DNA from: Myxococcota bacterium
GTDB taxonomy: Bacteria; Myxococcota_C; UBA6777
Assembly (NCBI GenBank): GCA_023150835.1
Contig: JAKLKB010000001.1
Coordinates: forward strand, 62,001-126,000
Direction of reading: 5' to 3'
DNA: 64,000 bases
Part shown: in pieces, positions 13,743-47,572 of the stretch
Position numbering within the stretch: position 1 is the stretch's first letter
How the letters are laid out: every line of letters starts with the position of its first letter
Made by a program: the position numbers and the translations under genes
Notes under the pieces: generated by a model
Seen by the model: only the letters and a program-made list of their open reading frames with translations
Databases searched by the model: none
What the model was told of the DNA's origin: nothing

Positions 13743-13817
13743 ATCTTGTGTTGTGTTCACAGCGGTCGCGGCTGACTTTTTTTCACTCAGCCGCTCAGGA
13801 GGGGGTTCGCGACCAAC

Positions 13818-14027
13818 TTTTTTCTTGGTCGTCAACGTGGAGGGGGGGGCGCGACTGACTTTTTTCTTGGTCGTCAACGTGGAGGGGAGTTCGCGACTAA
13901 CTTTTTTCTTGATCGCCAACGCGGAAGGGGGTTCGCGACCGACTTTTTTCTTGATCGCCAACGTGGAAGGGGGTTCGCGACCGACTTTTTTCTTGATCGC
14001 CAACGCGGAAGGGGGTTCACGACCGAC
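13818..14027. repeat. 42-bp minisatellite, five units
   Basis: Five consecutive 42-bp units start at 13818, 13860, 13902, 13944 and 13986, each opening with TTTTTTCTTG and closing with GCGACCGAC or a variant; a partial sixth follows. The period is a multiple of three, so both strands read open: plus gives a 14-residue GGSRPTFFLIANAE unit, minus gives a Lys-Lys-Lys-Val-Gly-Arg-Glu unit. Neither frame has an ATG with a ribosome-binding site, so I annotate a repeat, not a gene. Confidence 0.85.
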
Positions 14028-14124
14028 TTTCGTTTTGGGAGCAAGTGTTAAGTGAAGTCGACAAGCCGAAGCCCCGCAGAGCACACGAAGCACAAAAGAT
14101 CATGAAAAAGCAGCGCGTGTAATG

Positions 14125-30445: not shown

Positions 30446-30915
30446 CCTTGGTTCCTCTCTGTGGGAGAAGCACTGCGTGGATGATCTGCGCAGGCTTTGG
30501 ATGGTTTGGAGAAGGCACACGCAAGGGACGGCGCAACACGCGGGAAAAGGGGGGTGGGGGAGCCTCCCTGCTTGCCTTGGCAGTTTCCCTCTTGTAGCTT
30601 ACTTTCCGTTGCGAGACCAGAGAAAACATTGCGTGGCTGTGTCAGGCGGGTTTCTTTTGCGTGGCGGCCTCTTGACATTTTTGGGTGAGGCTGGTTTGTG
30701 TGTTGGCAAAGTCGTCGGCTCCGCAAGAAGACAAAGTCCGCGCTGGCACATCAAGCTCTAGCGTCGAGGGAGCGCGAAGCGTCATCAACTGTCATCCGAT
30801 ACAACAACGTCATGAGCAAACAAGATCATCGGGACTTGTGCCCTTTTGGGGGGCGCACACTTGTCTTTGGGTTGGAGTGCGAAACAGGATGCATGAAGAA
30901 GAAGTGAAGGGAACG
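30446..30915. other. Intergenic region upstream of dnaA, no oriC signature found
   Basis: 470 bp between a divergent unknown gene and dnaA. TTGACA at 30672 is followed 17 bp later by the poor -10 TTTGTG. I looked for clusters of TTATCCACA-like DnaA boxes and AT-rich unwinding DNA here and in the dnaA-dnaN gap and found neither. Nothing else is recognisable. Confidence 0.5.
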
Positions 30916-32256
30916 ATGCTCTGGCAAGCCATGTTCGAGGGTTTGCAAGAGCGGATCAGTCCCCAAAACTTTAAGATCTGGATCGAACCCGTCCGCCCGA
31001 GCCTTTCGGGAGGGGTGCTGCGTTTGTTTGTACCGAACCAGTACTTTCAGGATTGGATCGCGCAGAATTATCTCAACGATATCCACGAGATCGGCGAAAG
31101 TGTGTACGGCGGCTCTTTGCAGATCGAACTCACCTACCAAGAGGTCGAGCCGCTGGCGTTGGAAGTGCCGTTTTCGTCCCCTGCGTCCTCGACAGCGATC
31201 GCAGAAGGTCACTTTTTTGAACCCTTTACGACGCCCCGCCTCAACGAGCGCTATACCTTCGAAAGCTTTGTGGTGGGGCCATCTAACCAATTTGCGCACG
31301 CGGCTTGTTTGGCGGTCGCGAACGAACCTGCGGGCAGTTATAACCCGCTGTTTATCTATGGTGGCGTTGGTTTGGGCAAAACGCACTTGCTTCATGCGAT
31401 CGGCTGGGCTTTGCTCGAACATCCGCAAAGTCCGCGAGTCCTTTACATCTCGTCCGAACAGTTCGTCAACGAGATGATCACAGCGGTACGCTTTGACAAG
31501 CTTTCGGAGTTTCGTTCGCGTTATCGGGATCAATGCGATGTGTTGATGCTTGACGATATCCAATTCATCGCGGGCAAGAAGATGACCCAAGAAGAATTCT
31601 TCCATACCTTCAATTTCTTGCACAGTTCAAGCAAGCAGATCATCGTCACGTCGGATCGCTATCCGCAGGAGATCCCTGCGTTGGAAGAGCGCTTGCGTTC
31701 GCGTTTTCAGTGGGGATTGATCGCGGATATCCAAGAACCCGAACTGGAAACGCGGATGGCGATCGTCACCCAAAAAGCCGAGAACAACGGCCTGAATTTG
31801 GATAACGAGTTGGTGTTGTATCTGGCTTCGTCCATGCAAAACAACATCCGTGAACTCGAAGGGGCGTTGGTGCGCTTGCGGGCCTTTGCAGAATTGACGG
31901 GCCGTCAAGTGACCTTGCGGATGGCGCGAGACGTGTTGCGCGGTTTGATGCCCGAGCGCCAGCCTGTCGCCTCGGTCGAAGTGATCCAACAGATGGTCGC
32001 CGAGTATTACGAGGTGAAGCTGCATGATCTTCGCGGAAACAAGCGGCACAAGCAAGTGTTGTTGCCGCGTCAAGTCGCGATGTACCTGTGTCGAAAGCTC
32101 GCCCAAGCGTCCTTTGCGGAGATCGGGACGGGATTTGGTGGCAAGGATCATTCAACCGCGATCAACGCTTGTCAGCGGATCGAGCAGCTTTTACCGGATG
32201 ATCCTGTGTTGCGCTCGGAGATCAACGAACTCGAAGCGCGGATCCGCGAAGGTTGA
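30916..32256 (+). CDS. dnaA: Chromosomal replication initiator DnaA
   Basis: 446 residues, the usual length. The start MLWQAMFEGLQERIS at 30916 fits the typical DnaA N-terminus and has GAAGGGA upstream; an ATG at 30889 is the alternative. Domain I (1-80) is followed by a short linker; domain III has Walker A GGVGLGKTHLLHAIG (about 147-161), Walker B VLMLDDIQFI and the arginine-finger region; domain IV has the DnaA-box-binding helix GKDHSTAINACQRI. It is an ATP-dependent initiator that binds oriC. It is followed by dnaN and recF on the same strand, the common dnaA-dnaN-recF order. Confidence 0.97.
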   Translation: MLWQAMFEGLQERISPQNFKIWIEPVRPSLSGGVLRLFVPNQYFQDWIAQNYLNDIHEIGESVYGGSLQIELTYQEVEPLALEVPFSSPASSTAIAEGHFFEPFTTPRLNERYTFESFVVGPSNQFAHAACLAVANEPAGSYNPLFIYGGVGLGKTHLLHAIGWALLEHPQSPRVLYISSEQFVNEMITAVRFDKLSEFRSRYRDQCDVLMLDDIQFIAGKKMTQEEFFHTFNFLHSSSKQIIVTSDRYPQEIPALEERLRSRFQWGLIADIQEPELETRMAIVTQKAENNGLNLDNELVLYLASSMQNNIRELEGALVRLRAFAELTGRQVTLRMARDVLRGLMPERQPVASVEVIQQMVAEYYEVKLHDLRGNKRHKQVLLPRQVAMYLCRKLAQASFAEIGTGFGGKDHSTAINACQRIEQLLPDDPVLRSEINELEARIREG

Positions 32257-32457
32257 GCGGAGGGGATGCGTCGTCTTGGGTGATTGGAGGCGATGTGTTT
32301 GAGCGATGTGTCGATAAGAAAGCGCCGTCGCCAAGGCGTTTGGGTGGGGGGGGTTGTCTTGGAGAAAGAAAAAGGTAGAACGCTTGGCGTGTCGTGTCCA
32401 AGATAAACAGAGGTGAGATGTCGCCCGTTGGTGCGGCGTTCACGTGGAGAGAGATTC

Positions 32458-33603
32458 ATGCGATTGTTGATAGGTTGCAAGCCCTTGCTCAAGGTGGTGC
32501 AGATCGCACAAAGCGTCGTTCCCAAAAAGACGTCGAGACCGATCTTGATGCACCTACGATTGAAAGCGACGGTGGAGCGGGGGCTTGAGGTGACGGCCAC
32601 GGACGAAGAACTGACATTTCAGGCGACGACCGAAGCCCAAGTCGAAGTCCCGGGCGAGATCACCGTGTCTGCACGCGATCTGTACGAGATCGTGCGCACC
32701 ATGCCCGATGAGCCGTTGCGCCTCGAAGTCCTCTTGGACAAGGGGCAATTGGAGCTTTCGACGGGTGATCGGCGGATCGAGTTTCAATTGCACACACTCC
32801 CCGCAGGTGATTTCCCCGATACAGAGGGCATCTCCCCTGATCGCTCTTATGCGTACAAGGTCGAAGATCTGTTGCAATTGATCGATCGAACGGTCTTTGC
32901 GGTCTCGCAGGATGAAGCGCGTTATTATCTTGGCGGCGTCTTCTTGGAATGCCATGAAGGCGAAAATATCCGCGCTGTCGCCACCGACGGCCACCGGTTG
33001 GCGCTTGCAGAAGGCGCTCCTCCCGAAAAATTTGTCCTTTCCCCGGGAAAGATCCTGCCGCGCAAACTGCTCGGCGAGTTGCGCAAGACGCTCGACGATC
33101 GTCAAGGAGAAGTGCGATTTGGCTTTCAAGACAAAAAAGTGACGTTCCAACACGGCCCACAAACGCTGACCTCGCTGCTGGTGGAAGGCTCATTTCCAGA
33201 TTATCGGCAAGTGATCCCACGCACGCCGAGCATCGTGTGCCGCGTTCCTCGCGTCGACTTGCTCGAAGGGTTGCGTCGGATCTCGCTGCTGTCGCCTGAA
33301 AAGACAGGGGGGGTGCGCGTGCAGATCAAAGAAGACGCGCTACATCTCTTTAGCCAACACACAGGTCGCGGCCAAGCCAAAGAAGAAGTCCGTTTGCGCG
33401 AAGGTGGCGGAGATATCGAGATCGGATTCAATGCGAGCTATTTTATTGAGGCCTTGAATGTGATCGATACTGCCGAGGTCTTGCTCGAATTCACCAACTA
33501 TTTGAGTCCTTGCTTGTTGAAGCCCTACCAAGATCCCGCAAGCGAGGCCGAAAAAGGCAAGGCTCGTCCTCACCTCAACGTGATCATGCCGATGCGTTTG
33601 TAG
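32458..33603 (+). CDS. dnaN: DNA polymerase III beta subunit (sliding clamp)
   Basis: 381 residues from the ATG at 32458, with GGAGAGAGA upstream; the length is right for the family. Three successive clamp domains are visible, with typical segments PILMHLRLKATVERGLEVTATD, GDFPDTEGI, RYYLGGVFLE, RAVATDGHRLALAE, GSFPDYRQVIPR and GFNASYFIEAL, ending in an MPMRL C-terminus. The dimeric ring tethers the replicase to DNA. It lies 201 bp downstream of dnaA. In that gap I see no DnaA boxes. Confidence 0.96.
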   Translation: MRLLIGCKPLLKVVQIAQSVVPKKTSRPILMHLRLKATVERGLEVTATDEELTFQATTEAQVEVPGEITVSARDLYEIVRTMPDEPLRLEVLLDKGQLELSTGDRRIEFQLHTLPAGDFPDTEGISPDRSYAYKVEDLLQLIDRTVFAVSQDEARYYLGGVFLECHEGENIRAVATDGHRLALAEGAPPEKFVLSPGKILPRKLLGELRKTLDDRQGEVRFGFQDKKVTFQHGPQTLTSLLVEGSFPDYRQVIPRTPSIVCRVPRVDLLEGLRRISLLSPEKTGGVRVQIKEDALHLFSQHTGRGQAKEEVRLREGGGDIEIGFNASYFIEALNVIDTAEVLLEFTNYLSPCLLKPYQDPASEAEKGKARPHLNVIMPMRL

Positions 33604-33680
33604 TGGGTTGATGGGCTTTGATTTATGCCGAGTATCGGACTTTGTGATCTCTCTTTGTGCGTTTTGGGAGACCTCTGGGC

Positions 33681-34868
33681 TTGACGCTGCACCTCGCGCA
33701 ATTCGCATCCCACCATTTCCGCAACTTGGCGCATGAGCCTGTCACGCTGCATCCTCGCTTTAACTTTTTTTGCGGGGAAAATGGCCAAGGCAAGACCAAT
33801 CTGCTCGAAGCGATCTACTATTTGTTTACGTTGCGCCCGTTGCGTTCGGTGCGTCCAATCGATCTGTTGGCGTGGGGAGAGTCCCAAGCCTCTTTGTCGG
33901 GCGATATCTGCGGGCGTATCGAACGCACGTTGTCCGTACAATTTGGTCGACAAAAGCGCGATATCTTTCTCAATGGTGGGCCACCATTAAGCCTCGACGA
34001 CTACTTTAGCGAGTTGCAGATCGTCGCCTTTACACCCGAAGAGATCCAGTTGGTGCGGGGATCGCCGACTTTGCGAAGGCGTTTTCTGGATCGGGCTGTC
34101 TTTAACACAGATATCCGATATCTCCGAGAAGTTCGGCAATACCTCAAACTGCTCGATCACCGCAATGCTCTGCTCAAATCGTCTTCGCCCGATCGTGCGC
34201 TGCTGGACGTGTTGGCCGAGCAGTTTGCACAAGCGGGAGCGCGACTGATCCGCCGTCGTGTCGGGTTGCTTGAAAGCCTGCGGCCTCATCTGCGCGATGC
34301 CTACTATCGGATCTTTCCCGATCTGCTGATCGAGATCGATGTGCGCTACCAGTCGACGCTTGGCTCACTTCCGACCCTCGGCGAACATCCCTCGACCGAA
34401 GTGGTGGTCGCCTACGAACAAGATATCTTTGCGCGCTTTTTGGCGCAGATCCAAAAGATCCAGTCGCGTGAATTGGACCGACGGATGGCCTTGATCGGGC
34501 CTCATCTTGATGATCTCGAATTTTCTTTTGCCGGTCGCCCTTTCAAACAAGTCGCCAGTCAAGGACAAACACGGGCGTTGGTGTTGGCACTCAAGATCGC
34601 GGAGATATCCGAGATCAAAGCCCGCACAGGCGAACATCCGTTGTTGTTGTTGGACGATGTAGCCGGTGAGCTTGATCCCCGTCATTCGGGTATGTTCTTT
34701 GGATTCCTCGAAGAAACCCACGGTCAGGTCTTGCTTTCGACGACCAGTCTTGCGTACATCCAATTGCCCGATATCGAACGGTATCCGTGTTTTACCTTGG
34801 TCCAAGGAAAGATCGCGCCGTCGCCGCTTGGTGCAGAACACAGCGCGCAACATCAAGAAAGGGAATAG
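33681..34868 (+). CDS. recF: DNA repair/recombination protein RecF
   Basis: 395 residues from the TTG at 33681, which has GGGAG about 9 bases upstream and gives the family-typical start LTLHLAQFASHHFRNL. A GTG at 33657 would add eight residues without a ribosome-binding site. Walker A is FFCGENGQGKTNLLEAIYYL, the SMC-like signature is near ASQGQTRALVLALKIAE, and Walker B is LLLLDDVAGELD. RecF with RecO and RecR loads RecA at gapped DNA and is part of the replication-repair gene cluster. The stop codon lies 4 bases before the probable glgA start. Confidence 0.93.
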   Translation: MTLHLAQFASHHFRNLAHEPVTLHPRFNFFCGENGQGKTNLLEAIYYLFTLRPLRSVRPIDLLAWGESQASLSGDICGRIERTLSVQFGRQKRDIFLNGGPPLSLDDYFSELQIVAFTPEEIQLVRGSPTLRRRFLDRAVFNTDIRYLREVRQYLKLLDHRNALLKSSSPDRALLDVLAEQFAQAGARLIRRRVGLLESLRPHLRDAYYRIFPDLLIEIDVRYQSTLGSLPTLGEHPSTEVVVAYEQDIFARFLAQIQKIQSRELDRRMALIGPHLDDLEFSFAGRPFKQVASQGQTRALVLALKIAEISEIKARTGEHPLLLLDDVAGELDPRHSGMFFGFLEETHGQVLLSTTSLAYIQLPDIERYPCFTLVQGKIAPSPLGAEHSAQHQERE

Positions 34869-34872
34869 GTCG

Positions 34873-36366
34873 GTGGATTCGAGAAAATCATCATTGCGGA
34901 TCTTGATGGTGGCTGCGGAGATCGCACCTTGGGCCAAAGTTGGCGGTTTGGGCGACGTGATCGCGGCCCTTCCAAGTGCTTTGTGCCGCCAAGGAGCCGA
35001 AGTCGTCTTGGTGTTGCCGCGTTATCTGTGTTTGCGCGAGCCGCTGATGCCTGTGCGTGCGCTGCATCGTTCTCCTTTTCGGATGGCGTGGGGGCCTTAT
35101 TCGAGCTACAACTTGCGTTTGTTTGAAGCCCGTCATCCCGAAGGATTTCAAGTCTTGTTGGTCGACTGCCCTCCGCTATTTGATCGAGCGGGGATCTATC
35201 ATGCGCCCGGGGCCTCGTATGATTACGCCGATAGCTTGGTGCGTTGGACGGCGCTGTGTCGAGGCGCTTTGTTTGGTGCGCTGTTGCTTGGAGGCGAATG
35301 GGATATCGTTCACGCGCACGATATGCACGCTGCGCTGACACTCCCGCTGCTGCGCGAAGAACACAAAGCTTCTCCGCTTCATCACGCCCGTGCGGTGTTG
35401 AGCGTCCACAACCTCGCTTACCAAGGCATCCATCCCCTCGCATCCATCGAAGATATCGGTATCTCTCGCTCATACGCCGAACCTTTCGGACCCTACGAGT
35501 TTTACGGCCAGTTCAACATGATGAAAGCTGGCTTGCTGTTTGCCGATGGTATCCACACCGTCAGTCCGACTTATGCGTATGAGATCGTCGAAGAACCCGC
35601 GTTTGGTCACGGTCTGCAAGGGGTGTTGTGGTCGCGGCGTCATCAGGTGATGGGCATCCTCAACGGTATCGACGCCGACGTGTGGGATCCCCAAAGCCAA
35701 CCCGCCTTGCCCGCCGTTTACAATAGCGAAGAACTCGATGGAAAAGCCGTCTGTCGGCGCGCCTTGCAAGAAGAGTTGGGATGGTCGAACGATGACAAAC
35801 GCCCGATATTTGGGATGGTCACGCGCTTGACCGCCCAAAAGGGTCTCGATCTGGTCGCGGCTTGCGTGCCGATGCTGATCCAACAAGGGGCGCGGCTTGC
35901 GATCTTGGGGACGGGGGATCCCCGCCTAGAGGCTTCTTTGCGCGTTTTGATGGAACGCCACCCCGAACATCTCCAAGCCCGCTTCCTTTTTGATCAAGCC
36001 CTCGCCCACCGTATCCTCGCAGGTTCCGATCTGTGCCTGATGCCCTCTTTGTTTGAGCCGTGTGGTCTCGTGCAGATGTACGCCATGCGCTACGGCACAC
36101 CACCGATCGTCCGACGCACCGGCGGCTTGGCCGACACGGTCGAGATGTTTGAACCCGAACACCTCACAGGAACAGGCTTCTTGTTCGATGAACCTGAACC
36201 CAATGCCCTCGCCTCCGCCATCCAAAAAGCCCTGCTGATCTGGAGAAAACCAAACCTCTGGAATGAACTGGTCAAAAATGCGATGAAACGCGACTTTTCG
36301 TGGGATCACATCGCGCACGATTATATCCGGTGGTATCACGAACTTCTGACGGCCGTTCGCCCCTAG
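34873..36366 (+). CDS. glgA: Glycogen synthase
   Basis: 497 residues from a GTG at 34873, close after recF (4-bp gap) with AAGGGAATAGG upstream. The ADP-glucose-binding motif KVGGLGDV is at 22-29, AIL and HAHD segments follow, and the C-terminal domain has EPCGLVQMYAMRYGTPPIVR (about 394-413) with the family glutamate in EPCGL and the TGGLADTV loop. This GT5 enzyme extends alpha-1,4-glucan chains from ADP-glucose (or UDP-glucose) in the cytoplasm. Linkage to recF is unusual, as gyrB commonly comes next; no other glycogen gene is in the window. The stop overlaps the stop of ppx on the opposite strand. Confidence 0.94.
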   Translation: MDSRKSSLRILMVAAEIAPWAKVGGLGDVIAALPSALCRQGAEVVLVLPRYLCLREPLMPVRALHRSPFRMAWGPYSSYNLRLFEARHPEGFQVLLVDCPPLFDRAGIYHAPGASYDYADSLVRWTALCRGALFGALLLGGEWDIVHAHDMHAALTLPLLREEHKASPLHHARAVLSVHNLAYQGIHPLASIEDIGISRSYAEPFGPYEFYGQFNMMKAGLLFADGIHTVSPTYAYEIVEEPAFGHGLQGVLWSRRHQVMGILNGIDADVWDPQSQPALPAVYNSEELDGKAVCRRALQEELGWSNDDKRPIFGMVTRLTAQKGLDLVAACVPMLIQQGARLAILGTGDPRLEASLRVLMERHPEHLQARFLFDQALAHRILAGSDLCLMPSLFEPCGLVQMYAMRYGTPPIVRRTGGLADTVEMFEPEHLTGTGFLFDEPEPNALASAIQKALLIWRKPNLWNELVKNAMKRDFSWDHIAHDYIRWYHELLTAVRP

Positions 36367-37250
36367 ATCGCCTTTTGACGGTGCTTTTCGTACAGCAGCG
36401 AGACGATACCATCCACCAATCCGATCTGCGGCACAAACATCTCTTGCGTGCCTGCCGCGATCATCGCGCTGCGGTAGATCTCGGTCGCATGCACGATGAC
36501 ATCGGCGCGGTCTGGACGCAGTCCCAACACTTCGATCCGCTCCTCCACGCTGTAGCCACGCAACATCCCAAGCATCTCGTCGATCTTGTCGAGCGTCAGG
36601 GGCTTGCTGCTTTTCATTCCTGTGAGCTTGTGTAACGTGTTGATGTTTCCGCCTGTTCCGATCGCACTCAGCGGCTGGTACGGGAGAGCATACGTTTGTA
36701 ACCACTGGCGAAAGCGCTCTGCTTCGCCCGCGATGGCTTGCCCATGCAAGGCCCGCAGCGTCCCAAGCAAAAAAGAATTCGCGTTGACTCGCTGTTGTTG
36801 TCGCATCAGTGTCACTTCTGTGCTGCCCCCCCCCACGTCGATGTAGAGGTACGAACGCGCTGGATCGAGCTTTTCTTCGAGCGGGCTTGCACAGATAATC
36901 TCGGCTTCGCGTTTTCCGTCGATAATCTCCACCTGAAGCCCCGTTTGCTGCGCGATCTGCTCGATCAACGCAGAGCCATTTTCTGCACCACGCAAAGCGG
37001 CCGTCCCACAAGCCATCCAATCCAAGGGCTTTTGCACTCGCAACAGCGAACGAAAAGCCTTCATCGTTTCGAGCAAGTCCTCCGCCTTGGCTTCGGTGAT
37101 CCGACCCAAGGCGAACGCATCGTCCCCCAAACGCAACGGGACGCGCAACAAGGATTCTTTCTTGAAGGCCACTTTGCCCTTTGTCTCGATCACGTTGGAG
37201 ATCAACAGCCGCGCTGCGTTAGAACCGATATCGATGGCCGCAAATTTCAC
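36363..37250 (-). CDS. ppx: Ppx/GppA-family exopolyphosphatase
   Basis: 295 residues, matching the short single-module Ppx/GppA form without the HD-like C-terminal half of E. coli Ppx. The ASKHA ATPase fold is marked by FAAIDIGSNAARLLI, the catalytic-glutamate segment DGKREAEIIC, phosphate-binding YIDVGGGSTEVTL, and AIGTGGNINTL. It starts with GTG overlapping the ppk stop by 4 bases (GTGA) and has AGGAGG upstream, so translation is probably coupled to ppk. Such enzymes remove terminal phosphates from polyphosphate or from pppGpp. The gene is the last of the sixA-like/ppk/ppx group and converges on glgA. Confidence 0.92.
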   Translation of the reverse strand: MKFAAIDIGSNAARLLISNVIETKGKVAFKKESLLRVPLRLGDDAFALGRITEAKAEDLLETMKAFRSLLRVQKPLDWMACGTAALRGAENGSALIEQIAQQTGLQVEIIDGKREAEIICASPLEEKLDPARSYLYIDVGGGSTEVTLMRQQQRVNANSFLLGTLRALHGQAIAGEAERFRQWLQTYALPYQPLSAIGTGGNINTLHKLTGMKSSKPLTLDKIDEMLGMLRGYSVEERIEVLGLRPDRADVIVHATEIYRSAMIAAGTQEMFVPQIGLVDGIVSLLYEKHRQKAI

Positions 37251-39307
37251 GAATCCTCCTGTGTTTTTTCTTCTAAGTAGTCGCGAAATGCCTCTTGGGC
37301 ATGGACCTTTTTGCGGCCCTTCTTTTTGTAAACATTGCGTTGCTGTGCATCCAAGATCCGCGCTTTGCAGTTGTCGCGCAGTTGGATATCAAAAAAGCTT
37401 CGGATCTCCTCTTGGATCGAGGCGTCATAGATCGGACAGGCCACTTCGATCCGATGATTGAGATTGCGGTTCATCCAATCTGCCGACGTCAAGTAATACA
37501 ACGGATCGCCTCCGTTGCAAAAGACCATCAATCGGGTGTGTTCGAGAAAGCGACCGACGATGCTGATCACCTCGATGTTTTCGCTTAGTTCGGGGACATT
37601 TGGAATCAGAGAGCAATTCGAACGAACAATCGCGTGGATCTTCACGCCCGCGCAACTTGCTAAATACAACTTGTCGATCATCTCTTGATCCACCAAGCTG
37701 TTGATCTTCAAATAGATATAGGCGTCCAATCCTTGTTTGGCGCAGGCGATCTCGTTGTCGATCAGGCGCAAAAATCGTTTGCGCATTTGAAACGGCGACA
37801 CCACCAAGTGCTGATAACGCCCCACTTTGATGTTGTCTTCAAAAAATTGAAAGATCTGACTGACTTCGTTGGTGATGCGTGGATCGGCGGTAAATAGGCT
37901 GCAATCGCTGTAAAACCGTGAGGTCACTTCGTTGTAGTTGCCCGTACTCAGATTGGCGTAATGCACCCGCTTGCCTTGTTCAACACGTCGAATCAAGCAC
38001 AGCTTGGCGTGGACTTTGTAGCCCGGGACACCATACAACACCTTGGCCCCTTCTTCTTCGAGTTTGTTGGCCCAGTAGATGTTGGCCTCTTCGTCAAATC
38101 GGGCTTGTAGCTCCATCACGACGGTCACATCGGTTCCGTTTTTCACCGCGTTGATCAGCGCATTGACGATGTTGGAGTTTTTCGCCACCCGATACAACGT
38201 CATCTTGATCGCCTCGACCTTCGGATCGATCGCGGCCTCGCGCAAAAGATCGATCATCGAATCAAACGAATGATACGGATAGTGCAGCATGATATCGCGC
38301 TGCTTGATCGCGTTCAATAGGCTTTTTTCGCCGTGAAACCCGTCATGGGCAACCGTCTGAAAAGGCGGATAACGAAGGCTTTCTGAGCCGATCGTTGGAA
38401 AGTCGATAAAGTCTTTAAAGTTGTGGTAGCGTCCCCCCGGGATCCAGTTGTCTCGCTGTGTCAGTCCAAGCTTTTTCCCAAAAAATTGCAGCAGATCAGT
38501 AGGCATGGTCTCGTCGTACACAAAACGTACTGGACGCCCTCTTTTCCGCTGCTTGAGGCTTTTCGATATCTTGTCGATGTAGCTTTCAAAGGCGTCGTTG
38601 TGGATATCAAGCTCTGCATCGCGTGTCAGCTTGATCGTGTAGGCTTCGATCGTTTCAAAGTCGAATACCGCAAAGATCTGATCGAGATTGAGGCGGATGA
38701 CATCATCGAGCAAGATGATCTGATGCGTTCCTGCGGGGCTTGGAAGCACCACAAAACGCGATAAGTCTTCCGAGGGGATCTCGATCAATGCATACTTTTT
38801 CCGATCTTCTTGTGAAAGGTAGATCGCAAAGTAAATACTCTTGTCTTTAAGGTAAGGAAATTTCTTGATGTGCGCGCCCATGATGATCGGAACAAGACTG
38901 GGCTGCACTCGTGATCGAAAGTACTCGCGCACAAAGGCTTCTTGCTCTTTGGACAGTTGCTTCTCGCTCAAGATCCAGATCTGGTGTGCCGCAAGATCCG
39001 CAAGAATCTTTTGGTAGGTTTGCTCAAAAAGATCCTGTAGCTGCACCACGCGCTCGTGGATCTCATCCAGCACTTCTTGGGGATCTGTTTTTAAGACCTT
39101 TTCTGCTTCCTTGCGGCTTTGTAGTGCGCGCTTGAGGGTGGCAACACGCACACGAAAAAACTCATCCAAGTTCGATGAAAAGATCCCCAAAAACTTGACC
39201 TTCTCCAACAGCGGAACCTGCCGATCATTGGCTTCTTGAAGGACGCGTGCATTAAACGACAGCCAACTGATATCACGATTGGTATAAGATATCTTCTTTT
39301 TTGGCAT
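37247..39307 (-). CDS. ppk: Polyphosphate kinase 1
   Basis: 686 residues, full length for PPK1. Begins with NRDISWLSFNARVLQEA as in other PPK1 enzymes and has the N-terminal FLGIFSSNLDEFF segment. The two catalytic histidine motifs are present: KVHAKLCLI (about 430) with YANLSTGNYN after it, and FLEHTRLMVFCNGGDP (about 587). PPK1 makes long-chain polyphosphate from ATP at the membrane periphery, and with ppx gives a synthesis/degradation pair. The start follows a weak AAGGATG and lies 18 bp after the sixA-like gene. Co-transcription of the three genes is likely. Confidence 0.96.
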   Translation of the reverse strand: MPKKKISYTNRDISWLSFNARVLQEANDRQVPLLEKVKFLGIFSSNLDEFFRVRVATLKRALQSRKEAEKVLKTDPQEVLDEIHERVVQLQDLFEQTYQKILADLAAHQIWILSEKQLSKEQEAFVREYFRSRVQPSLVPIIMGAHIKKFPYLKDKSIYFAIYLSQEDRKKYALIEIPSEDLSRFVVLPSPAGTHQIILLDDVIRLNLDQIFAVFDFETIEAYTIKLTRDAELDIHNDAFESYIDKISKSLKQRKRGRPVRFVYDETMPTDLLQFFGKKLGLTQRDNWIPGGRYHNFKDFIDFPTIGSESLRYPPFQTVAHDGFHGEKSLLNAIKQRDIMLHYPYHSFDSMIDLLREAAIDPKVEAIKMTLYRVAKNSNIVNALINAVKNGTDVTVVMELQARFDEEANIYWANKLEEEGAKVLYGVPGYKVHAKLCLIRRVEQGKRVHYANLSTGNYNEVTSRFYSDCSLFTADPRITNEVSQIFQFFEDNIKVGRYQHLVVSPFQMRKRFLRLIDNEIACAKQGLDAYIYLKINSLVDQEMIDKLYLASCAGVKIHAIVRSNCSLIPNVPELSENIEVISIVGRFLEHTRLMVFCNGGDPLYYLTSADWMNRNLNHRIEVACPIYDASIQEEIRSFFDIQLRDNCKARILDAQQRNVYKKKGRKKVHAQEAFRDYLEEKTQEDS

Positions 39308-39325
39308 AAGAGAACATCCTTGATG

Positions 39326-40954
39326 TTATTCAGAAGGGGGCAACTTGGATCGGGGCGAGCGGTTCGATTGAGTCGATGGATTTGTTTTGCTGGAGTTGGT
39401 TTTTGGGGTTGGATTGGTTTTTGGGGTTGGATTGGTTTTTGGGGTTGGATTGGTTTTTGGGGTTGGATTGGTTTTTGGGGTTGGATTGGTTTTTGAGGGA
39501 CGCTGGCGGCGAGGGGGTGCTGTGGGGGAAGTTGTCAAGGGAGGTGTGTCTTGTGTTGGGGGGACGGTCTCGACGAGCGGATCTGGCGGCGAATGAAGGT
39601 TAACAGAGGTCGAAGAGTCCGATCCTTGGGGGAGTTCTGCGGTGGCATCGATTCGGCTGGTGTCGGTGGTGAGCGCGGGTTCGGTGGGGGGAGGCATGAA
39701 GGACGAAGAGAGCGAGTCGATCGAAGGCGAAGACAGCGAGGCCGTCTCGTGAGTAGGCGAAGACAGCGAGGCCGTCTCGTGAGTAGGCGAAGACAGCGAG
39801 GCCGTCTCGTGAGTAGGCGAAGACAGCGAGTCGATCGAAGGTGAAGACAGCGAGTCGATCGAAGGTGAAGACAGCGAGGCCGTTTCGTGAGCAGGCGAAG
39901 AGGGCCGATGCGAAGGCAAAAGAGGGCTGTTGGGAGTGGAGGAAGGCGGAGTGTTTTGGAGATTGCGGGCGATCTTTTCAAGGATCTTGGGAGAGATGGG
40001 TTTGGGCTTTCGCTTACAACCTTTGCATCGACCAAACAGCGCGAGATGCTTGAGATTTACTTTTTTTTGCTTCTCTGTTTTCTTTTGCTTTTCTGCGGAG
40101 CGAAGCTCTTCCTTTTTCGCTTTTCGCGGCTTTTCTTTCTCTTTCTCGGCGGAAGCTATTTTTTCAGAAGGATTCTGTTTTTTTGTTTTTTTTTCTATTT
40201 TTTCGCTTTCTTCTTTTTCAGCAGATACTTTTTCAGCAGATACTTTTTTCGCCAGTTTTTTTGCCGCTTTTTCGATGATCTCTTTCATCTTGGGTGAAAG
40301 TTCTGAAACAAGAGTTTGTGCGGCTGCTTCGAGTTTTTCCGTAAGTTGTATTTGTAAATGTTTTTGGATTTGTTTTTCTGGTGTTTGTTTTTCTGATGTT
40401 TGTTTTTCTGATGTTTGTTTTTCTGATGTTTGTTTTTCTGGTGTTTGTTTTTCTAGGCGTTTGGGTGAGTTGGCTGGGAGGACTTCGAGAAAATCAAAGG
40501 TATTGATTTGCTTTTGGAGATCGCGCCAAAACTCGACAGGGCAGGAGATGCCGATGAGGCCGCCTGTCGGGAGTGGCTGATTGTAGTGGTTAGAGAGAGC
40601 GCGGGCGAGGTCTTCAAAGGAGGGGTTATGACCAAACAAGCAGACAGCTTCGTGTTGATCGTCGAGTGTGCGCAACAGCCGCCACAGTCCTTCGTGATCG
40701 TCGGTGTAGAGGCGTTCGTTGATGTGGATGCTTTCGAGGGGGCGTTGCCATTCTTCGCAGAAGATCTTGGCGGTTTCTGCGGCGCGACGTGCGGGGCTTG
40801 AAAGCAAGAGCGGAGGAGTGAGACCTGCGTGGAGCAAGAATTGGGCGGCATGGCGGGATTCTTGGGTCCCTTCGTGGACGAGTGGGCGTTCAGCGTCAAG
40901 AAGGCCCGTTTGTTTGAGGGCTTTGCCGTGTCGGACAAGGTAGATTTTTTTCAT
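39326..40954 (-). CDS. SixA-like phosphohistidine phosphatase with Lys-rich repeat tail
   Basis: 542 residues from the ATG at 40954. Residues 1-160 are a complete SixA-type phosphatase: IYLVRHGKA with the catalytic histidine, SSPARRAAETAKIF, ERLY, and the second histidine in LFGHNPSFEDLA. The remaining 380 residues are low complexity: KQTSE repeats of 5 residues (about 170-190), a long Lys/Glu/Ala-rich stretch (about 210-290), an SLSSPTHETA repeat block (about 350-410), then a KTNPTP block of 6-residue repeats ending in a basic tail. No membrane segment is seen. SixA removes phosphate from histidine, for example on Hpt domains or PTS proteins. It is 18 bp ahead of ppk. The role of the tail is unknown; lysine-rich tails could bind polyphosphate, an inference from the neighbours. 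Confidence 0.85.
   Translation of the reverse strand: MKKIYLVRHGKALKQTGLLDAERPLVHEGTQESRHAAQFLLHAGLTPPLLLSSPARRAAETAKIFCEEWQRPLESIHINERLYTDDHEGLWRLLRTLDDQHEAVCLFGHNPSFEDLARALSNHYNQPLPTGGLIGISCPVEFWRDLQKQINTFDFLEVLPANSPKRLEKQTPEKQTSEKQTSEKQTSEKQTPEKQIQKHLQIQLTEKLEAAAQTLVSELSPKMKEIIEKAAKKLAKKVSAEKVSAEKEESEKIEKKTKKQNPSEKIASAEKEKEKPRKAKKEELRSAEKQKKTEKQKKVNLKHLALFGRCKGCKRKPKPISPKILEKIARNLQNTPPSSTPNSPLLPSHRPSSPAHETASLSSPSIDSLSSPSIDSLSSPTHETASLSSPTHETASLSSPTHETASLSSPSIDSLSSSFMPPPTEPALTTDTSRIDATAELPQGSDSSTSVNLHSPPDPLVETVPPTQDTPPLTTSPTAPPRRQRPSKTNPTPKTNPTPKTNPTPKTNPTPKTNPTPKTNSSKTNPSTQSNRSPRSKLPPSE
39398..39496. repeat. 18-bp tandem coding repeats (KTNPTP)
   Basis: The unit GGTTGGATTGGTTTTTGG recurs about five times, encoding Lys-Thr-Asn-Pro-Thr-Pro on the minus strand near the C-terminus of the sixA-like gene. 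Other repeats in the same gene are a 30-bp unit at about 39735-39890 (SLSSPTHETA) and a 15-bp unit at about 40380-40455 (KQTSE). Confidence 0.85.
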
Positions 40955-41105
40955 GGATCTGTTATCTCGGCGGTGGTGGGGACAATCGAGAGCAATCGGG
41001 GGGGGAACATACCAATCCGTTTCGCGGCCTGTCAAGGGCGATATGGTGGTTTGTGAACAAGCGGGCAGAAAAAGTGCGTAGAGTTGCAGAGAGCAGAGGG
41101 GCGGT

Positions 41106-44100
41106 TTAGGGGACGATGCTGATGCGGAGGGGGTGCTGCCAGAACTTGAGGTCGTCGTTGTAGTAGGGGTAGGCAGAAGAGGCGGGGCCCGTGTAGTTGC
41201 CGGTGACGTGGGCGACGAGGTCGAGGTGGAGGGTGCGTCGGGCTTTCGGTTCCATCTGGCGCAAATAGACGATCAGTTCGCGGGGATGGAGTTCATAAAA
41301 GTCGACGATGTTTTTTTCTTTGAGTTCTTTGAGTTGCCAGATCTGGGGGGTGAGGCCGCCGGGAAAGGCGATGCGTGCGAGAGTCATGGCTTGGGGTTGG
41401 TCGCTTTTATTGAGGATCGAGGCGGAGAGGCGGGTGATCTCGCCGAGTTTGAGGCGGCGTTTGCTCATCTCGATCTCAAGGTGTATGGGGGCGTTCGGGG
41501 CGGAAGGAGGTGTGTAGATGTAGAAGGAGGCGTGGGCGCTAAAGGGGATGTTGGCTTTGCCTTTGAGCGAAACGTTGAGTTGATTTTTTCCCGGATGTAG
41601 GGGGATTTTTTTGTAGATGGAGCTACTTACGTTGCTTTGTTGGGGATCGAGGGTTTGGGCGAAGAAGGGAGTGTCGTCGAGTGAGGCGAGTAGGTCGTAC
41701 TTGGCGGAGGTGGAAGGGAAGCGTTGTTCAAAGGCGGCAAGGGCTTGGAGGGCGAGAACGGTGGCTTGGGTGGCTCCATAACGCCCGTACATACTGCGTT
41801 GTTGTTGAAGCCAAGATAGCGAAGGCGTGATCTGTTCTTCGGGCATACGGGCGCGTAGCATGGCGAGGATGGCGAAGGAGGTGGTTTCGATGGCGAGGTT
41901 GCGACCGTAGGAGCCGACAAACGAGCCACGGCGGCCTTGGAAATGCCCACCTGCGCGGCGTTGTTTGAGCAGTTGGTTCAAATAAGCCGAAGCTTGGGCG
42001 CTTTTGGGGCCGTTGGCATGTTGGGTGGCGAGGGTAGCGAGAGCGAGTAGGTAGGCGTCTTGGGACTTCGTTGCGGTATGTTGCGTGGCGGAAAGCTCGG
42101 TGGATAGGTCACGTTCACCTGCTTCAAACAGAGCGAAAGTGATGTAGGCGTTATGAACATCGCGGGAAGTGTTTCCAAAGTCGCCGTAGCTTCGGCCTGT
42201 ACGAAAGCCGCCATTTCCGTTTCGGCGGCTTTTGAGCCAACGGCGTGTGCGTTCGAGCAGGGCTTTGCTGACGGGATAGACTTCGCGCATGGCGAGGAAT
42301 TGGAGGAGGCCGTAAGCGGAGAGGGCTTCGTCAGCGGGAGGGGAGCCGTACCAATCGAAGCCACCGCCTCGGATCTCAAAGCTGATCAGACGGCGATATC
42401 CCGAAGCGAGATAGCGATGGGCGCGGGCGTAAAGGGCGGGATTGTCGATGCGTTTTTGTTTGAGGTAGCGCAAGGCCATGATGTTGGGGTAGTTGGTGGC
42501 GGAAGTTTGTTCAAAGCAACCCGACGGATAGCGGAGCATACCAGCGGCGGCTTGGGTCATGCCTTGGAGGGAAGAGGTGTAGAGTTTGAGTTGGGTGTGG
42601 AGATTGGTGAAATCTCTGGCTGGAGGGAGTTGCAAGGCGAACTGTTGGGTTTTTTCGTTTCGAAGGGTGCCGGAAACACCGATTTGGCGGGGGAATCCGC
42701 GAGGTCGGATGCGGATAGATTGTGAGATCGCATCGGAGAGACCTTGGGAGGTGGCGGTGATGCTGACGGAACCTTCGCCGCGTGGGGCTTGAACACGTAG
42801 CGGCAAAAAGGTGGTGATACCTTCGTTGGGCTGAAGGGTGAGGCCGTCTGCAAAAGGATCTTCGAGCAGTTTAAAGTGATGGCTGATCTGGAGCTTGGTG
42901 TGGAGGGTGAGGGGGGTTTTGCTGTCGTTGCGTAAGGTGATGGGGAGGACCATCGCGTCGGAGGAGGAGACTTCGTTGGGGATGCGGACGGCGAGGAAGA
43001 AGGGCCGCTTGGAGGCGATGGTATGTGTTTTTCGTCCGATGTATCCGCCGCCAACGCTGGTGGTGAGGATCCGAAAAGAGGTGATGCTATCGTTGAGACC
43101 GAAGCTGATCTTGGCTTCTCCCCAAGCATCCGTTTTGATCAACGGGTTCCAATACAGGGTTTCGCGAAAGTCTGTGCGTTGTGTGGGGGCTTGGGCTTGG
43201 GTTGGTTGTGCGGGTGGTGTGGGGGCTGTGTTGGCTTGGGCGTAAAAGCGGATCGGGAAGACGCGAGGAGTTTGCCAAGAGAGTCGTGCAAACAACGAAG
43301 CTGTGGGTGTGGTTGCGATCGCTGTGGGGGGAGCCATGCCGCGATGATCGGCGGCACTCCATCTGCGTCGGGCTTTGTCTCGCTTGCCACGCGCTCCTCG
43401 ACGAGAACGGCGTACACGACGAGCCCGCGATTTTTTCGGACGAGCTGCTTCGTCTGCGCTGATCGGTCGGACGATATCAGCAGGGGGAGATTGTTTCGCG
43501 GCTACGTTGCCCATCACAGGCGCAGGATCGGGGTTGGCGCGCTGTTGTTCTTGTGAGGGCGCAGGTTCTGCGGAGGGGGCGCTTTGTGTGTTGCTTGCAA
43601 CGGAGGGGCTTTTTTCAAGATCGGGGGAAGGCATCGGGATCCGCGCAGGCGGCGGTGATTCGGGCTTTTGTGCGTGTGCGGAAGGGGTAGGTCTTGCGGC
43701 AGGGGTGGGGGTGGGTAAGTCGGCGGGAGACGCGGCAGGTGTGGGGGGGGCGGTGATGGCGGGTTTTGCGCGGCGTTTGGAGCGCGGAGAGGAGCCGTTT
43801 TCTGTTCGGCTTCGGCTGCCGTAGCCGCGTCCCATTCCGCCGATGTTACCGCGTCTTGTCTCGCCGCCCAACAGTCCGAGCGCAGTGCCTCCGCCGCTGA
43901 CTCCATCGCCTCGCATACCGATGCCTCCCGAAGGCTCAGCAGGGCTTTGGATCGTTGTCGTGGGTTCGGCGGGGGATTCGTAGCGTTGTACTGTGTACCC
44001 GCCATAGCCGCGAAAACGTCGATACCTTCGGTTTTGGCGGAGCCACAGCGCTTGTTGGATCGCGGATTCATCTTGGGCGAGCGGTTGTTGAAGAAACGAT

Positions 44101-46010
44101 GTATCGGGGATCTCGGTGAGTGCTGCGAGGGCTTTGGGAGGGCGTCCTATTTTGAGGATCTTCCATGAAAAGTCGCGCCACCCGTGAGTTCCCATCACGA
44201 GGTCGATGGCGGCGAAGCGTTGTTTGTTGGAAGCGCGGAAGTAGCGGTTGGGCTTGTAGATCTTGCCGACGAGTTGGGCGGTGAGGTGGCGTTGGGTGAG
44301 CAGGTGTGGTTCGTGGTCATCGGCGTAGGTGAGGACGGTATCATCGACGACCGCGACACCAAGGCGGGCATCTTTGAGCGGTTTTCCTTGGAGGTCCGTC
44401 ACGCGGAGTTTGAGATGCGCGGTTTGACGGGGCTGATAGCTCGGTTGATCGGGGATAATCTCGATCTTGACTTGTTGGTCGAGGTGTCGAAACACCAAGC
44501 GCTCGGCGAGTGGGGTGCGATACGCTGCATCAAACAACGTCAGGCGCACGATCCCTCGTTTTTGCGCGGTCAACGGGAGTTTGAGGTGCTGTGCGCCTTG
44601 TTGGAGCGTGTAGCTTTGGTGTCCGATGATCTGCTCGTGTTGCATCGCCATGACAACGATCTGACGGGGCTTTTGCGCTTCGACAAGGATCTGGAGATCG
44701 GCGTTTTTGGTGTGCCAATCGTCCACCAGCCGCATGGTCAAACCGACATTGCGGCTTGTGGAGGGCAAGGGGTAGCGTTCGGTTAGGCCGATGGGGCGTG
44801 TAATTCGCAACGTGTAGGTTTGTTTGTCTATTGGAACGAAGCTGAATCGGCCCATGCCATCGTAGAAAGATCGAACTTCGGCGATCTTGGTTCCTGTGCT
44901 GTCTTCGATGATCCCTTCGACGTCTTGGGGCTTTTGGTCGATCTCTCGACGGATCGAGAAGTAGACGCGGTTTTGGAGTCCGCTGACCAGACCGCCGCCC
45001 TCGGGGAAAAACCCGACCAACAGGCGCTTGGCGCGAAGGGGGATGGCGCGAGAGAGCGATTCTTGTGCGCCCGACTCCGTCACGAAGGCCGTCAGGGTGC
45101 CTTCTTCGGAAGAGGTTTCTTTCGGTAGATCGGCGCGCAACAAGACGTGACCTTTGTCGTTGGTTTTGGCGGTCCATTGGCGAAATACGCGGCCTGAGAG
45201 GGCGGCTTCTGCGCGGACGGGGTGGTTGGCCAAGATCACCCCTGCAGCGGTCTTGACGCGCAGCGTGGCCTCGATGGTATCGCCGGGTCCGTATCCTTTG
45301 CGTACGAATTCCATTTTCATTTGGAGGCGAGGTGGTTGGTAGGCCATGACAAAGATTTTTTTCTCGGCCTTGCTTTGGGTGCTTTCGAAGTGGAGGTGGA
45401 GTGTGTACTCACCGCCTTTTGCGTCGCTGCTGAGAGAAAAGGCGGTCATGGTGTGGCCTTGAGCGACGGGGAGTTTGTGTCGGTGCACGATATCGCCGCG
45501 AGGTCCGCGCAATTCAAAGATCGCGGCATCGAGGGCTTGGCGGGTGTCGTTGGTGTATTCTTGGATCTCGACACCGCGCACCCAGATGGTTTCGCTTGGT
45601 TTGTAAAGGGGCTTGTCGGTTTCGAGGAGCAGCCGGTAGCTGCGGCCTTTTCCGATGGAGCGTTTGATCCGCTCGGCAAATCCGCGATCTTGGAGCTTTA
45701 ATTTTTGGGATGAACACAGTGGGCCTTCGGCGGGAAGGGCGGCGAGTTGTTTTTGTGCGGTGGGAGGGGCAGGAGATGGAGCAAGCGCAGGCGCGGGAGG
45801 GATCGGAGATTTGTCGGAAAAGCGCAAGGGCGCAAAGCGCGGCATCGGCGGTGTAGCCCAGCCCCAGTCGATAAAGCTGAGGGGGGCTTTGGTGAGGCGA
45901 TCGACGTTTTGGGCGATCTGACGGGGTTCACAAGCGAGGCTGCCGCCGAGGAGTAGTGCTGTGCCAAAGAGCCACAGCACGCTTTGTTTGAGGCGTTTGT
46001 TTTTTTTCAA
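41106..46010 (-). CDS. Alpha-2-macroglobulin-family lipoprotein with thioester motif
   Basis: 1634 residues, starting with TTG and AAGGAG 9 bases upstream. Signal peptide with GGSLAC (Cys27) suggests lipidation. MG2-type beta domains from about 95 (LLLETDKPLYKPSETIWVRG), repeated MG domains to about 640, then a Pro/Ser-rich, Arg-rich insert (about 690-890) containing RRVRRSRRGARGKRDKARR. The bait-like/complement-like C-terminal half has FRILTTSVGGGYIGRK and the thioester motif YPSGCFEQTS (about 1160), then the TED helices and receptor-binding-like region. Bacterial A2M proteins sit in the periplasm and trap proteases by bait cleavage and thioester bonding. Often a penicillin-binding protein PbpC is adjacent; here lgt is divergent instead. 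Confidence 0.9.
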   Translation of the reverse strand: MKKNKRLKQSVLWLFGTALLLGGSLACEPRQIAQNVDRLTKAPLSFIDWGWATPPMPRFAPLRFSDKSPIPPAPALAPSPAPPTAQKQLAALPAEGPLCSSQKLKLQDRGFAERIKRSIGKGRSYRLLLETDKPLYKPSETIWVRGVEIQEYTNDTRQALDAAIFELRGPRGDIVHRHKLPVAQGHTMTAFSLSSDAKGGEYTLHLHFESTQSKAEKKIFVMAYQPPRLQMKMEFVRKGYGPGDTIEATLRVKTAAGVILANHPVRAEAALSGRVFRQWTAKTNDKGHVLLRADLPKETSSEEGTLTAFVTESGAQESLSRAIPLRAKRLLVGFFPEGGGLVSGLQNRVYFSIRREIDQKPQDVEGIIEDSTGTKIAEVRSFYDGMGRFSFVPIDKQTYTLRITRPIGLTERYPLPSTSRNVGLTMRLVDDWHTKNADLQILVEAQKPRQIVVMAMQHEQIIGHQSYTLQQGAQHLKLPLTAQKRGIVRLTLFDAAYRTPLAERLVFRHLDQQVKIEIIPDQPSYQPRQTAHLKLRVTDLQGKPLKDARLGVAVVDDTVLTYADDHEPHLLTQRHLTAQLVGKIYKPNRYFRASNKQRFAAIDLVMGTHGWRDFSWKILKIGRPPKALAALTEIPDTSFLQQPLAQDESAIQQALWLRQNRRYRRFRGYGGYTVQRYESPAEPTTTIQSPAEPSGGIGMRGDGVSGGGTALGLLGGETRRGNIGGMGRGYGSRSRTENGSSPRSKRRAKPAITAPPTPAASPADLPTPTPAARPTPSAHAQKPESPPPARIPMPSPDLEKSPSVASNTQSAPSAEPAPSQEQQRANPDPAPVMGNVAAKQSPPADIVRPISADEAARPKKSRARRVRRSRRGARGKRDKARRRWSAADHRGMAPPTAIATTPTASLFARLSWQTPRVFPIRFYAQANTAPTPPAQPTQAQAPTQRTDFRETLYWNPLIKTDAWGEAKISFGLNDSITSFRILTTSVGGGYIGRKTHTIASKRPFFLAVRIPNEVSSSDAMVLPITLRNDSKTPLTLHTKLQISHHFKLLEDPFADGLTLQPNEGITTFLPLRVQAPRGEGSVSITATSQGLSDAISQSIRIRPRGFPRQIGVSGTLRNEKTQQFALQLPPARDFTNLHTQLKLYTSSLQGMTQAAAGMLRYPSGCFEQTSATNYPNIMALRYLKQKRIDNPALYARAHRYLASGYRRLISFEIRGGGFDWYGSPPADEALSAYGLLQFLAMREVYPVSKALLERTRRWLKSRRNGNGGFRTGRSYGDFGNTSRDVHNAYITFALFEAGERDLSTELSATQHTATKSQDAYLLALATLATQHANGPKSAQASAYLNQLLKQRRAGGHFQGRRGSFVGSYGRNLAIETTSFAILAMLRARMPEEQITPSLSWLQQQRSMYGRYGATQATVLALQALAAFEQRFPSTSAKYDLLASLDDTPFFAQTLDPQQSNVSSSIYKKIPLHPGKNQLNVSLKGKANIPFSAHASFYIYTPPSAPNAPIHLEIEMSKRRLKLGEITRLSASILNKSDQPQAMTLARIAFPGGLTPQIWQLKELKEKNIVDFYELHPRELIVYLRQMEPKARRTLHLDLVAHVTGNYTGPASSAYPYYNDDLKFWQHPLRISIVP

Positions 46011-46354
46011 GAGTCTCGTCTCCTTCGTAGGTTTCGATCGGCGATGTGCGCGGCGTGTGGAGGGGGGAGCCTACTTGCGTGCCAAGTCGCTTCTTTGTAC
46101 TTTGCTGCGCGAGCGCATCGGGGCTTGTCGAGTTTTCTTTGGCCCTATCTCATTTCGTTGGGGTCAGCGGTGGGATACAGAGCGCGATCTCGTTGAACGA
46201 CACACGACGTTTTGCGATCTAAATCTTGTTTGTGCCTTGTGGTTTCTGGCCGAACGCTTGTGCGGATGGTTGGCTGGATCGTGAAAAAGTTCCCATGTAC
46301 GGTGTGTTTGATCTGTCTGCTTGGTGTGCAGTTTGTAAAAAGGAGCAACGTTTG
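46011..46354. other. Divergent intergenic region between A2M and lgt genes
   Basis: 344 bp with the ribosome-binding sites of both genes at its ends. TTGAAC at 46193 has a poor -10 (TCTAAA, spacer 19 bp), so no promoter can be assigned. An ORF beginning at 46226 merely extends lgt in frame and is not coding-like before 46355. Nothing else is visible. Confidence 0.5.
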
Positions 46355-47572
46355 ATGAAGTATCCAGAGTGGTTATCGCCGTTTATCATCTCGCCGGATA
46401 TCCCGCTGCGTTGGTACGGTACGATGTATGTGTTGGGCTTTCTGTCTGGCTTTTTGATCATGCGCCATTACATCAAGACCAAGGAGTTCAAGATCCCGCT
46501 TGAAGAAGAGGGCGGACTCTACGACCTGATGATGTATCTTATCCTTGGTTTGATGATCGGTGCGCGGGTGGGCAACTACATCCTCTACAGCCCAGAAGTG
46601 TTTGTTTTGCGGCCTTGGGAAGTCATCGGCTTCCATTATCGGCCTGATGGGAAGTTTAGCCATTTTGCCTTGTCTGGGATGTCTTTTCACGGCGGGCTGT
46701 TCGGGGTATTTGTGGCGATCTTGCTGTTTTTGCGTCGCTACAATTACAAGTTTTCGCACATCGGAGACTGGGCGGTTCTTGCGGCGACGCCCGGTCTGTT
46801 CTTCGGTCGGATGGGGAACTTCTTTAACGCCGAACTTTACGGTACGAAGACATCTTCGATCTGGGGGATGCGGTTTCCCCTTTACGATAAGGTCGGTGGA
46901 TACGAGAAATGGATCAAGCTTCCTGCGGCGCTGCGCCCGTACACAGAGCCACGCCACGCTTCGCAGCTTTACGAGGCGTTGCTTGAGGGCTTGGTGCTGA
47001 TGTTGATCTTGTTATTTATCAAAAGCCGCAAGCCTGCGCGGGGTGTGATGGCGTGGGCGTTTGTCGCCTTCTATGGTCTATTTCGGACGATGGTTGAATT
47101 TGTGCGCGATCCGAGTATCGCTTGGTCGTTGGGATGGTTCACTTCGGGGATGTTTTATTCTGTCCCGATGTTCCTCGTCGGGGTGGTAATGATGATCCGA
47201 CTCCAACAAAATCGCACCTCCTTTGTGGGGGATGATGCTTCGCCTTATCGCAATCCTTCGCCTTTCAAGGTTTCGGCTTCCAAAAGCGGGGCAGCGCCCA
47301 AAGATCGGCAGCGCCCATCTTCTCCGAAAGATCCGCCTCTTTCGTCTGCATCTTCTCCTGCAAAGGCATCGAATAAGGCCAAAGAGGCCGCCCCCAAAGC
47401 CCCCGCAAACCCACCCTCGGATGAAGCCTCTGCTGTTTCCACAAAGACCGCTCCTTCGGCAAAGACCGCTCCTCCGAAAAAGAACACTGCTCCGAATCAG
47501 CACAAGCCCACCCCGAAATCCTCTGTCTCGCAACAAGCCGCCAACAAAAGCAGCAAAAAGAAGAAAAAATAA
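46355..47572 (+). CDS. lgt: Prolipoprotein diacylglyceryl transferase with Lys/Pro-rich C-terminal tail
   Basis: 405 residues from the ATG at 46355 with AAGGAG upstream. The first 290 residues are a typical polytopic Lgt: PLRWYGTMYVLGF, GARVGNYIL, the catalytic-region SFHGGLFG and the signature GLFFGRMGNFFNAELYG with the conserved Arg, Asn and Glu, then HASQLYEALLEG. It transfers diacylglycerol from phosphatidylglycerol to the lipobox cysteine of prolipoproteins in the inner membrane. Residues about 300-405 are a low-complexity tail rich in Lys, Ala, Pro and Ser ending in six lysines out of seven, absent from E. coli Lgt. It is divergent from the A2M lipoprotein gene, a likely substrate, as is the Cys-rich lipoprotein at 26.3 kb. 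Confidence 0.93.
   Translation: MKYPEWLSPFIISPDIPLRWYGTMYVLGFLSGFLIMRHYIKTKEFKIPLEEEGGLYDLMMYLILGLMIGARVGNYILYSPEVFVLRPWEVIGFHYRPDGKFSHFALSGMSFHGGLFGVFVAILLFLRRYNYKFSHIGDWAVLAATPGLFFGRMGNFFNAELYGTKTSSIWGMRFPLYDKVGGYEKWIKLPAALRPYTEPRHASQLYEALLEGLVLMLILLFIKSRKPARGVMAWAFVAFYGLFRTMVEFVRDPSIAWSLGWFTSGMFYSVPMFLVGVVMMIRLQQNRTSFVGDDASPYRNPSPFKVSASKSGAAPKDRQRPSSPKDPPLSSASSPAKASNKAKEAAPKAPANPPSDEASAVSTKTAPSAKTAPPKKNTAPNQHKPTPKSSVSQQAANKSSKKKKK

Follow-up and report, generated by a model that had tools for sequence, protein, structure and literature searches.

The DNA that we analysed, hereafter the window, is 64,000 nt long, and all positions below count from its first letter. Three minus-strand genes lie side by side in it, with the following features:

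41006..41035, minus strand: promoter-like TTGACA-18-TATGTT, upstream of sixA
39326..40954, minus strand: sixA-like gene, 542 aa (phosphatase domain, helical module and disordered tail)
40475..40954, minus strand: SixA phosphatase domain, residues 1-160; RHG at 8, GHNP at 108
40369..40454, minus strand: 15-bp tandem repeat encoding an EKQTS/P linker
39935..40450, minus strand: Lys/Glu-rich part of the tail, residues 169-340; 24% K, 14% E, net +22
40178..40381, minus strand: residues 192-259, predicted to form a two-helix module that is probably related to a standalone ppk-linked protein
40160..40249, minus strand: PASK motif region, residues 236-265
39329..39934, minus strand: Ser/Thr/Pro-rich part of the tail, residues 341-542; net -1, with a KTNPTP repeat at its end
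37247..39307, minus strand: ppk1, 686 aa; motifs HAKL (433) and EHTR (589)
36363..37250, minus strand: ppx (short Ppx/GppA type), 295 aa, GTG start

The open reading frames confirmed the compact arrangement described in the initial annotation, with 18 bp between sixA and ppk and a 4-bp GTGA overlap between ppk and ppx, and family matches bore out its view of the three genes as a polyphosphate (polyP) unit. The ppk product is unambiguously PPK1 (838 bits; TIGR03705, 808 bits against a cut-off of 466; all four Pfam domains). The ppx product matched the Ppx-GppA domain at 104 bits (cut-off 27) and fell below the TIGR03706 cut-off (182.6 versus 307 bits), while the SixA domain scored 31 bits for His_Phos_1 and 61.6 bits for TIGR00249 (sixA), whose cut-off is 74.5. 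The SixA and PPX assignments therefore hold at the domain level but fall short of the strict NCBIfam cut-offs. The first protein is SixA-like, short of a certified TIGR00249 equivalog, and its phosphohistidine phosphatase activity is putative.

The SixA-like protein has the SixA fold with its RHG and GH catalytic motifs. An AlphaFold model of residues 1-260 gave a pLDDT mostly of 90 or more across the SixA domain, and a fold search with this model returned SixA structures (2rfl, 1ujb and 3f2i) as the best PDB matches. Behind the domain, the model places a disordered linker (residues 162-186) and two helices (192-217 and 221-259). Promoter-like sites around sixA showed no excess over shuffled sequence. 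Immediately preceding sixA, and read in the same direction, is a large gene for an alpha-2-macroglobulin-type protein (41106-46010), which precedes sixA in the sister genome too.

Counted from residue 168 onward, the tail comprises 374 residues. Its earlier description as about 380 residues of Lys/Glu/Ser repeats fits only from about residue 169 to about residue 340, beyond which the protein becomes Ser/Thr/Pro-rich with a different repeat. The DNA of the tail contains tandem repeats of 15 bp (5.7 copies, EKQTS), 30/24 bp (LSSPTHETAS) and 18 bp (5.8 copies, KTNPTP). A PASK motif is defined as at least 75% D/E/S/K in 20 aa including a lysine (PMC12345225); six 20-aa stretches within residues 236-265 qualify, and sixA was the only one of 26 window genes checked that encodes such a motif. 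The tail is only mildly basic overall, which counts against a polyP-targeting reading, and it contains no AT-hook. A CHAD domain was considered for the tail and rejected, as PF05235 had no match in the window SixA protein. Elsewhere in the window, the last 115 or so residues of the lgt product (46226-47572) form a tail with much Lys, Ala, Pro and Ser that terminates in KKKKK.

For comparison we used a sister genome of the same genus, G001, whose ppk-bearing contig belongs to KLAP109 ('Myxococcota bacterium'). Between the two, the SixA domain had a dN/dS of 0.225, against 0.042 in ppk and 0.092 in ppx, and the two tail pieces that could be compared gave 0.315 (N part) and 0.42 (C part). The tail thus changes quickly, yet with values well below 1 it does so as a protein-coding sequence. 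Repeat units have turned over between the genomes (15 bp in one, 18 bp in the other). At the G001 locus (L007:1501-2292) an in-frame TAA, where the window has GAA, follows straight after the SixA domain; placed at residue 169, it would leave a SixA of 168 aa, close to the median of 166 aa for SixA near ppk. The frame behind this codon is still open, with a dN/dS of 0.32, and the contig ends within the tail, so that the TAA is either a real stop or an assembly error; as it stands, it is a point against a function for the tail. No ppk1 was found in the three other family members examined, and the polyP unit therefore appears patchy in this lineage.

We then compared gene order across the nearest ppk loci from GTDB genomes, restricting counts to loci with enough flank. 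Apart from the sister genome these were mostly from Bacteroidota, at about 51-58% identity. Of 73 loci, 48 have sixA immediately before ppk, and of 77, 47 have ppx immediately after it; the full sixA-ppk-ppx order occurs in 28 of 71 and is common in Bacteroidota, often with the same 4-bp overlap as in the window (14 of 49 loci overall). A cluster of ppk, sixA and ppx has also been published for HIMB59 (PMC10734472), which, like the Bacteroidota loci, has the same three genes side by side. Being both frequent at related loci and published, the layout is already known, although the annotation knew of no described system of this kind. What sets the window apart from Bacteroidota is the protein itself: their SixA is about 165 aa long and carries no fused tail, and in 15 of their loci a module with a Lys-rich tail is encoded by a separate gene. 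In gene order the window offers nothing new; what stands out is the tail. Our literature searches found nothing that explains the frequent adjacency of SixA to ppk, and nothing on 'phosphohistidine phosphatase SixA' together with polyphosphate.

The annotation had also proposed looking for sixA-ppk-ppx neighbourhoods with an extended SixA, and this proved productive: besides the recurrent gene order, we recovered the tail module on other SixA proteins. Long SixA proteins occur at ppk loci L087 (576 aa), L109 (537 aa), L070 (418 aa), L085 (258 aa) and L105 (243 aa; this one adjoins ppx, about 2.3 kb from ppk), and together with the window protein they have a common helical segment behind the SixA domain. 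Long SixA frames at L170-L175 proved to be N-terminal over-reading and were rejected as tails. In 386 diverse genomes, a profile of SixA plus the segment reached the module, among the matches listed, in the window genome, G001, G049, G240, G148 and G161; the extended SixA lies directly beside ppk in G240 and G161, and away from ppk in G049 and G148, which speaks against a polyP reading. In 296 Bacteroidota genomes, the extended SixA among the matches listed came from a single class, f259, where all four genomes examined carry it just upstream of ppk. SixA with the module, mostly beside ppk, was seen at L070, L085 and L065, and in G240, G679, G161 and the four f259 genomes. The module sits at the SixA C-terminus in at least five lineages besides that of the window, two of which have H1-like or AT-hook-like tails behind it: PKKAA-type and H1-like in L070 (net +42), and, in f259, numerous repeats of KKRGRKP that resemble AT-hooks (net +34 to +85). 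Further SixA proteins have short ends behind the module, and the short or acidic fused tails of G240, G161 and G679 weigh against a polyP reading. On the PPK tree, whose deeper forks are modestly supported, the extended SixA required 2 changes, compared with a mean of 11.0 and a minimum of 6 in 200 shuffles.

A module search against all 4655 ORFs of the ppk loci picked out small ORFs just upstream of ppk. Direct inspection showed a separate ORF of 82-151 aa ending 12-94 bp before ppk in 15 Bacteroidota loci (L078:6701-6964 is one example); 12 of them have sixA on its other side, and in the other three (L064, L067 and L115) no sixA was found upstream of it. The encoded protein opens with a two-helix domain and continues into a tail of 25-57% K+R; its net charge as a whole is +16 to +33. 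Its predicted structure (helices at residues 3-25 and 27-55, then a low-confidence tail) reproduces the anatomy of the window module. A profile built from the standalone proteins, with no SixA in it, found as its best matches outside the family the SixA modules of L227, L168, L065 and L166 (E of 2e-7 to 1.5e-3 in the 4655 ORFs), whereas the same profile reversed as a control yielded nothing below E 0.6 in that set. Profile-profile comparison of standalone and SixA modules gave 97.3% (E 2.5e-11). The window module alone matched the standalone profile weakly (7.9 bits, with 1 of 200 shuffles as good), and its membership in the family consequently rests on a chain of relatives. No Pfam or NCBIfam family scored above its cut-off for the standalone module. 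A broad Bacteroidota sample gave three weak module matches, with no ppk, sixA or ppx within about 1.5 kb on either side; the standalone gene therefore seems limited to some lineages. Literature searches for H1-like proteins with ppk in Bacteroidetes, and for AT-hooks with polyP granules, found none.

Several known systems resemble the window protein in part. For polyP granules to be spaced evenly, AlgP needs its H1-like tail (PMC9239181). AlgP and PhaF, both tied to granules, have a helical N-terminal part and a disordered, H1-like and Lys-rich C-terminal tail, and in this pairing of helices and tail they resemble the window protein; AlgP, however, has KPAA repeats and no phosphatase, and the window tail (K/E and then S/T/P) contains no KPAA-type Lys/Ala/Pro-rich repeats. 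The tails of L070 and of the standalone proteins come nearer to the H1-like composition of AlgP/PhaF than the window tail does. CHAD phosins are built on a polyP-associated helical domain, and SixA-PPX-CHAD gene groups occur in archaea (PMC10892726). Like CHAD, the window module is helical and linked to SixA and PPX genes; unlike CHAD, it spans only about 55-65 residues and has no CHAD match. At L035:4490-5797 (genome G055), a single fused gene encodes a CHAD domain N-terminal to a SixA-like domain. Disordered lysine-rich stretches bind polyP (PMC12345225), and the formal PASK motif aligns the window protein, by its sequence, with the proteins described there. Mycobacterial MutT1, represented by the structural matches 5gg9 and 3fjy, shares a SixA-like phosphatase domain with the window protein but has it fused to a Nudix domain. 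Its gene presumably lies near ppk1 in mycobacteria, and we know of no basic tail on MutT1.

Going beyond the observed gene order, module relatedness, tail composition, PASK motif and constraint on the tail, we read the window gene as an apparent fusion in which sixA has been joined to a ppk-linked, H1-like protein. Elsewhere, a tail of this type stands alone as a little protein whose gene neighbours ppk, so the window tail is probably part of polyP biology and not junk. The fusion and the shared linkage to ppk suggest joint action of SixA and the module-tail protein on polyP. Given the binding of polyP by Lys-rich stretches, the AlgP tail and the SixA-CHAD fusion, our preferred reading is that the tail takes SixA to polyP; by analogy with AlgP on granules, the fusion most likely places the phosphatase on polyP. 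The proposal as a whole, a polyP operon in which a module and a partly Lys-rich tail keep SixA at polyP, seems to us about equally likely to be right or wrong. The initial suggestion of a link between the tail and polyP remains reasonable, with the PASK motif, and a helical start probably akin to a ppk-linked protein, in its favour. Its covalent form, polyphosphorylation of lysines, we set aside, as attachment to lysine repeats is argued to be non-covalent (Neville 2024, as cited in PMC12345225; a companion paper on the covalent question is likewise cited by PMC11352482).

Mechanistically, PPK1 would make polyP and PPX would take off its end phosphates, while SixA, a predicted histidine-type phosphatase and recurrent neighbour of ppk, would be held by the fusion at polyP or at a polyP-nucleoid interface. 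The basic tail could bind polyP electrostatically; alternatively, it may link polyP to DNA, a role already proposed for the H1-like AlgP tail. The substrate of SixA might be a polyP-linked phosphoprotein, short polyP or a nucleotide. PPK1 works through a phosphohistidine intermediate, which makes an attractive guess for that phosphoprotein. More tentatively, and as one possibility among others, an undescribed family of ppk-linked proteins, small, basic and H1-like, might organise polyP granules or their link to the nucleoid in several phyla and have been repeatedly fused to SixA, delivering the phosphatase to polyP and perhaps onto the PPK1 intermediate. A Lys-tailed ppk-linked module, alone and SixA-fused, would offer a handle on how bacteria place and size polyP granules, beyond AlgP and CHAD phosins, and on the SixA-ppk adjacency.

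The polyP operon could be real and the tail still be a neutral, slippage-driven, low-complexity extension in an extension-prone genome, with no role in polyP. The short tandem repeats and their turnover between sisters fit such an origin, as does the stop after SixA in G001, and the Lys-rich tail on lgt in the same window keeps the idea alive. We nevertheless consider it somewhat unlikely, given that the module has a probable counterpart in a gene of its own beside ppk, that it is met again on SixA in other phyla, and that the tail's dN/dS is well below 1. The G001 stop also raises the very unlikely prospect that the functional SixA of the genus ends after the phosphatase domain, at normal length, and that the intact tail in the window is a remnant, either in decay or misassembled; no stop interrupts the window ORF, however, the G001 frame stays open and constrained past its stop, and that stop sits at a repeat, which a metagenome consensus may get wrong.

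Alternatively, the tail and the standalone proteins might bind the nucleoid or RNA and not polyP, their linkage to ppk reflecting co-expression in starvation. The AT-hook-like repeats of f259 and the H1-like tails of L070 and the standalone proteins would suit DNA binding, but the linkage to ppk is tight even at loci without sixA, the window tail is PASK-like and without an AT-hook, and binding of DNA and of polyP are compatible. We regard this alternative as quite unlikely.

Some further features lie outside these comparisons. The polyP operon directly follows a stretch at 30685-36366 that we take, from translations and general knowledge, to hold dnaA, dnaN and recF in that order before glgA, and it is thus near an apparent origin-type gene cluster. 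Tandem arrays of 125 bp (4 copies) and 42 bp (5.5 copies) occupy 13250-14030. In the 1.5-Mb genome G014, locus L033:2117-5482 has the order ppx-ppk-sixA, with overlapping genes and a SixA of normal length.
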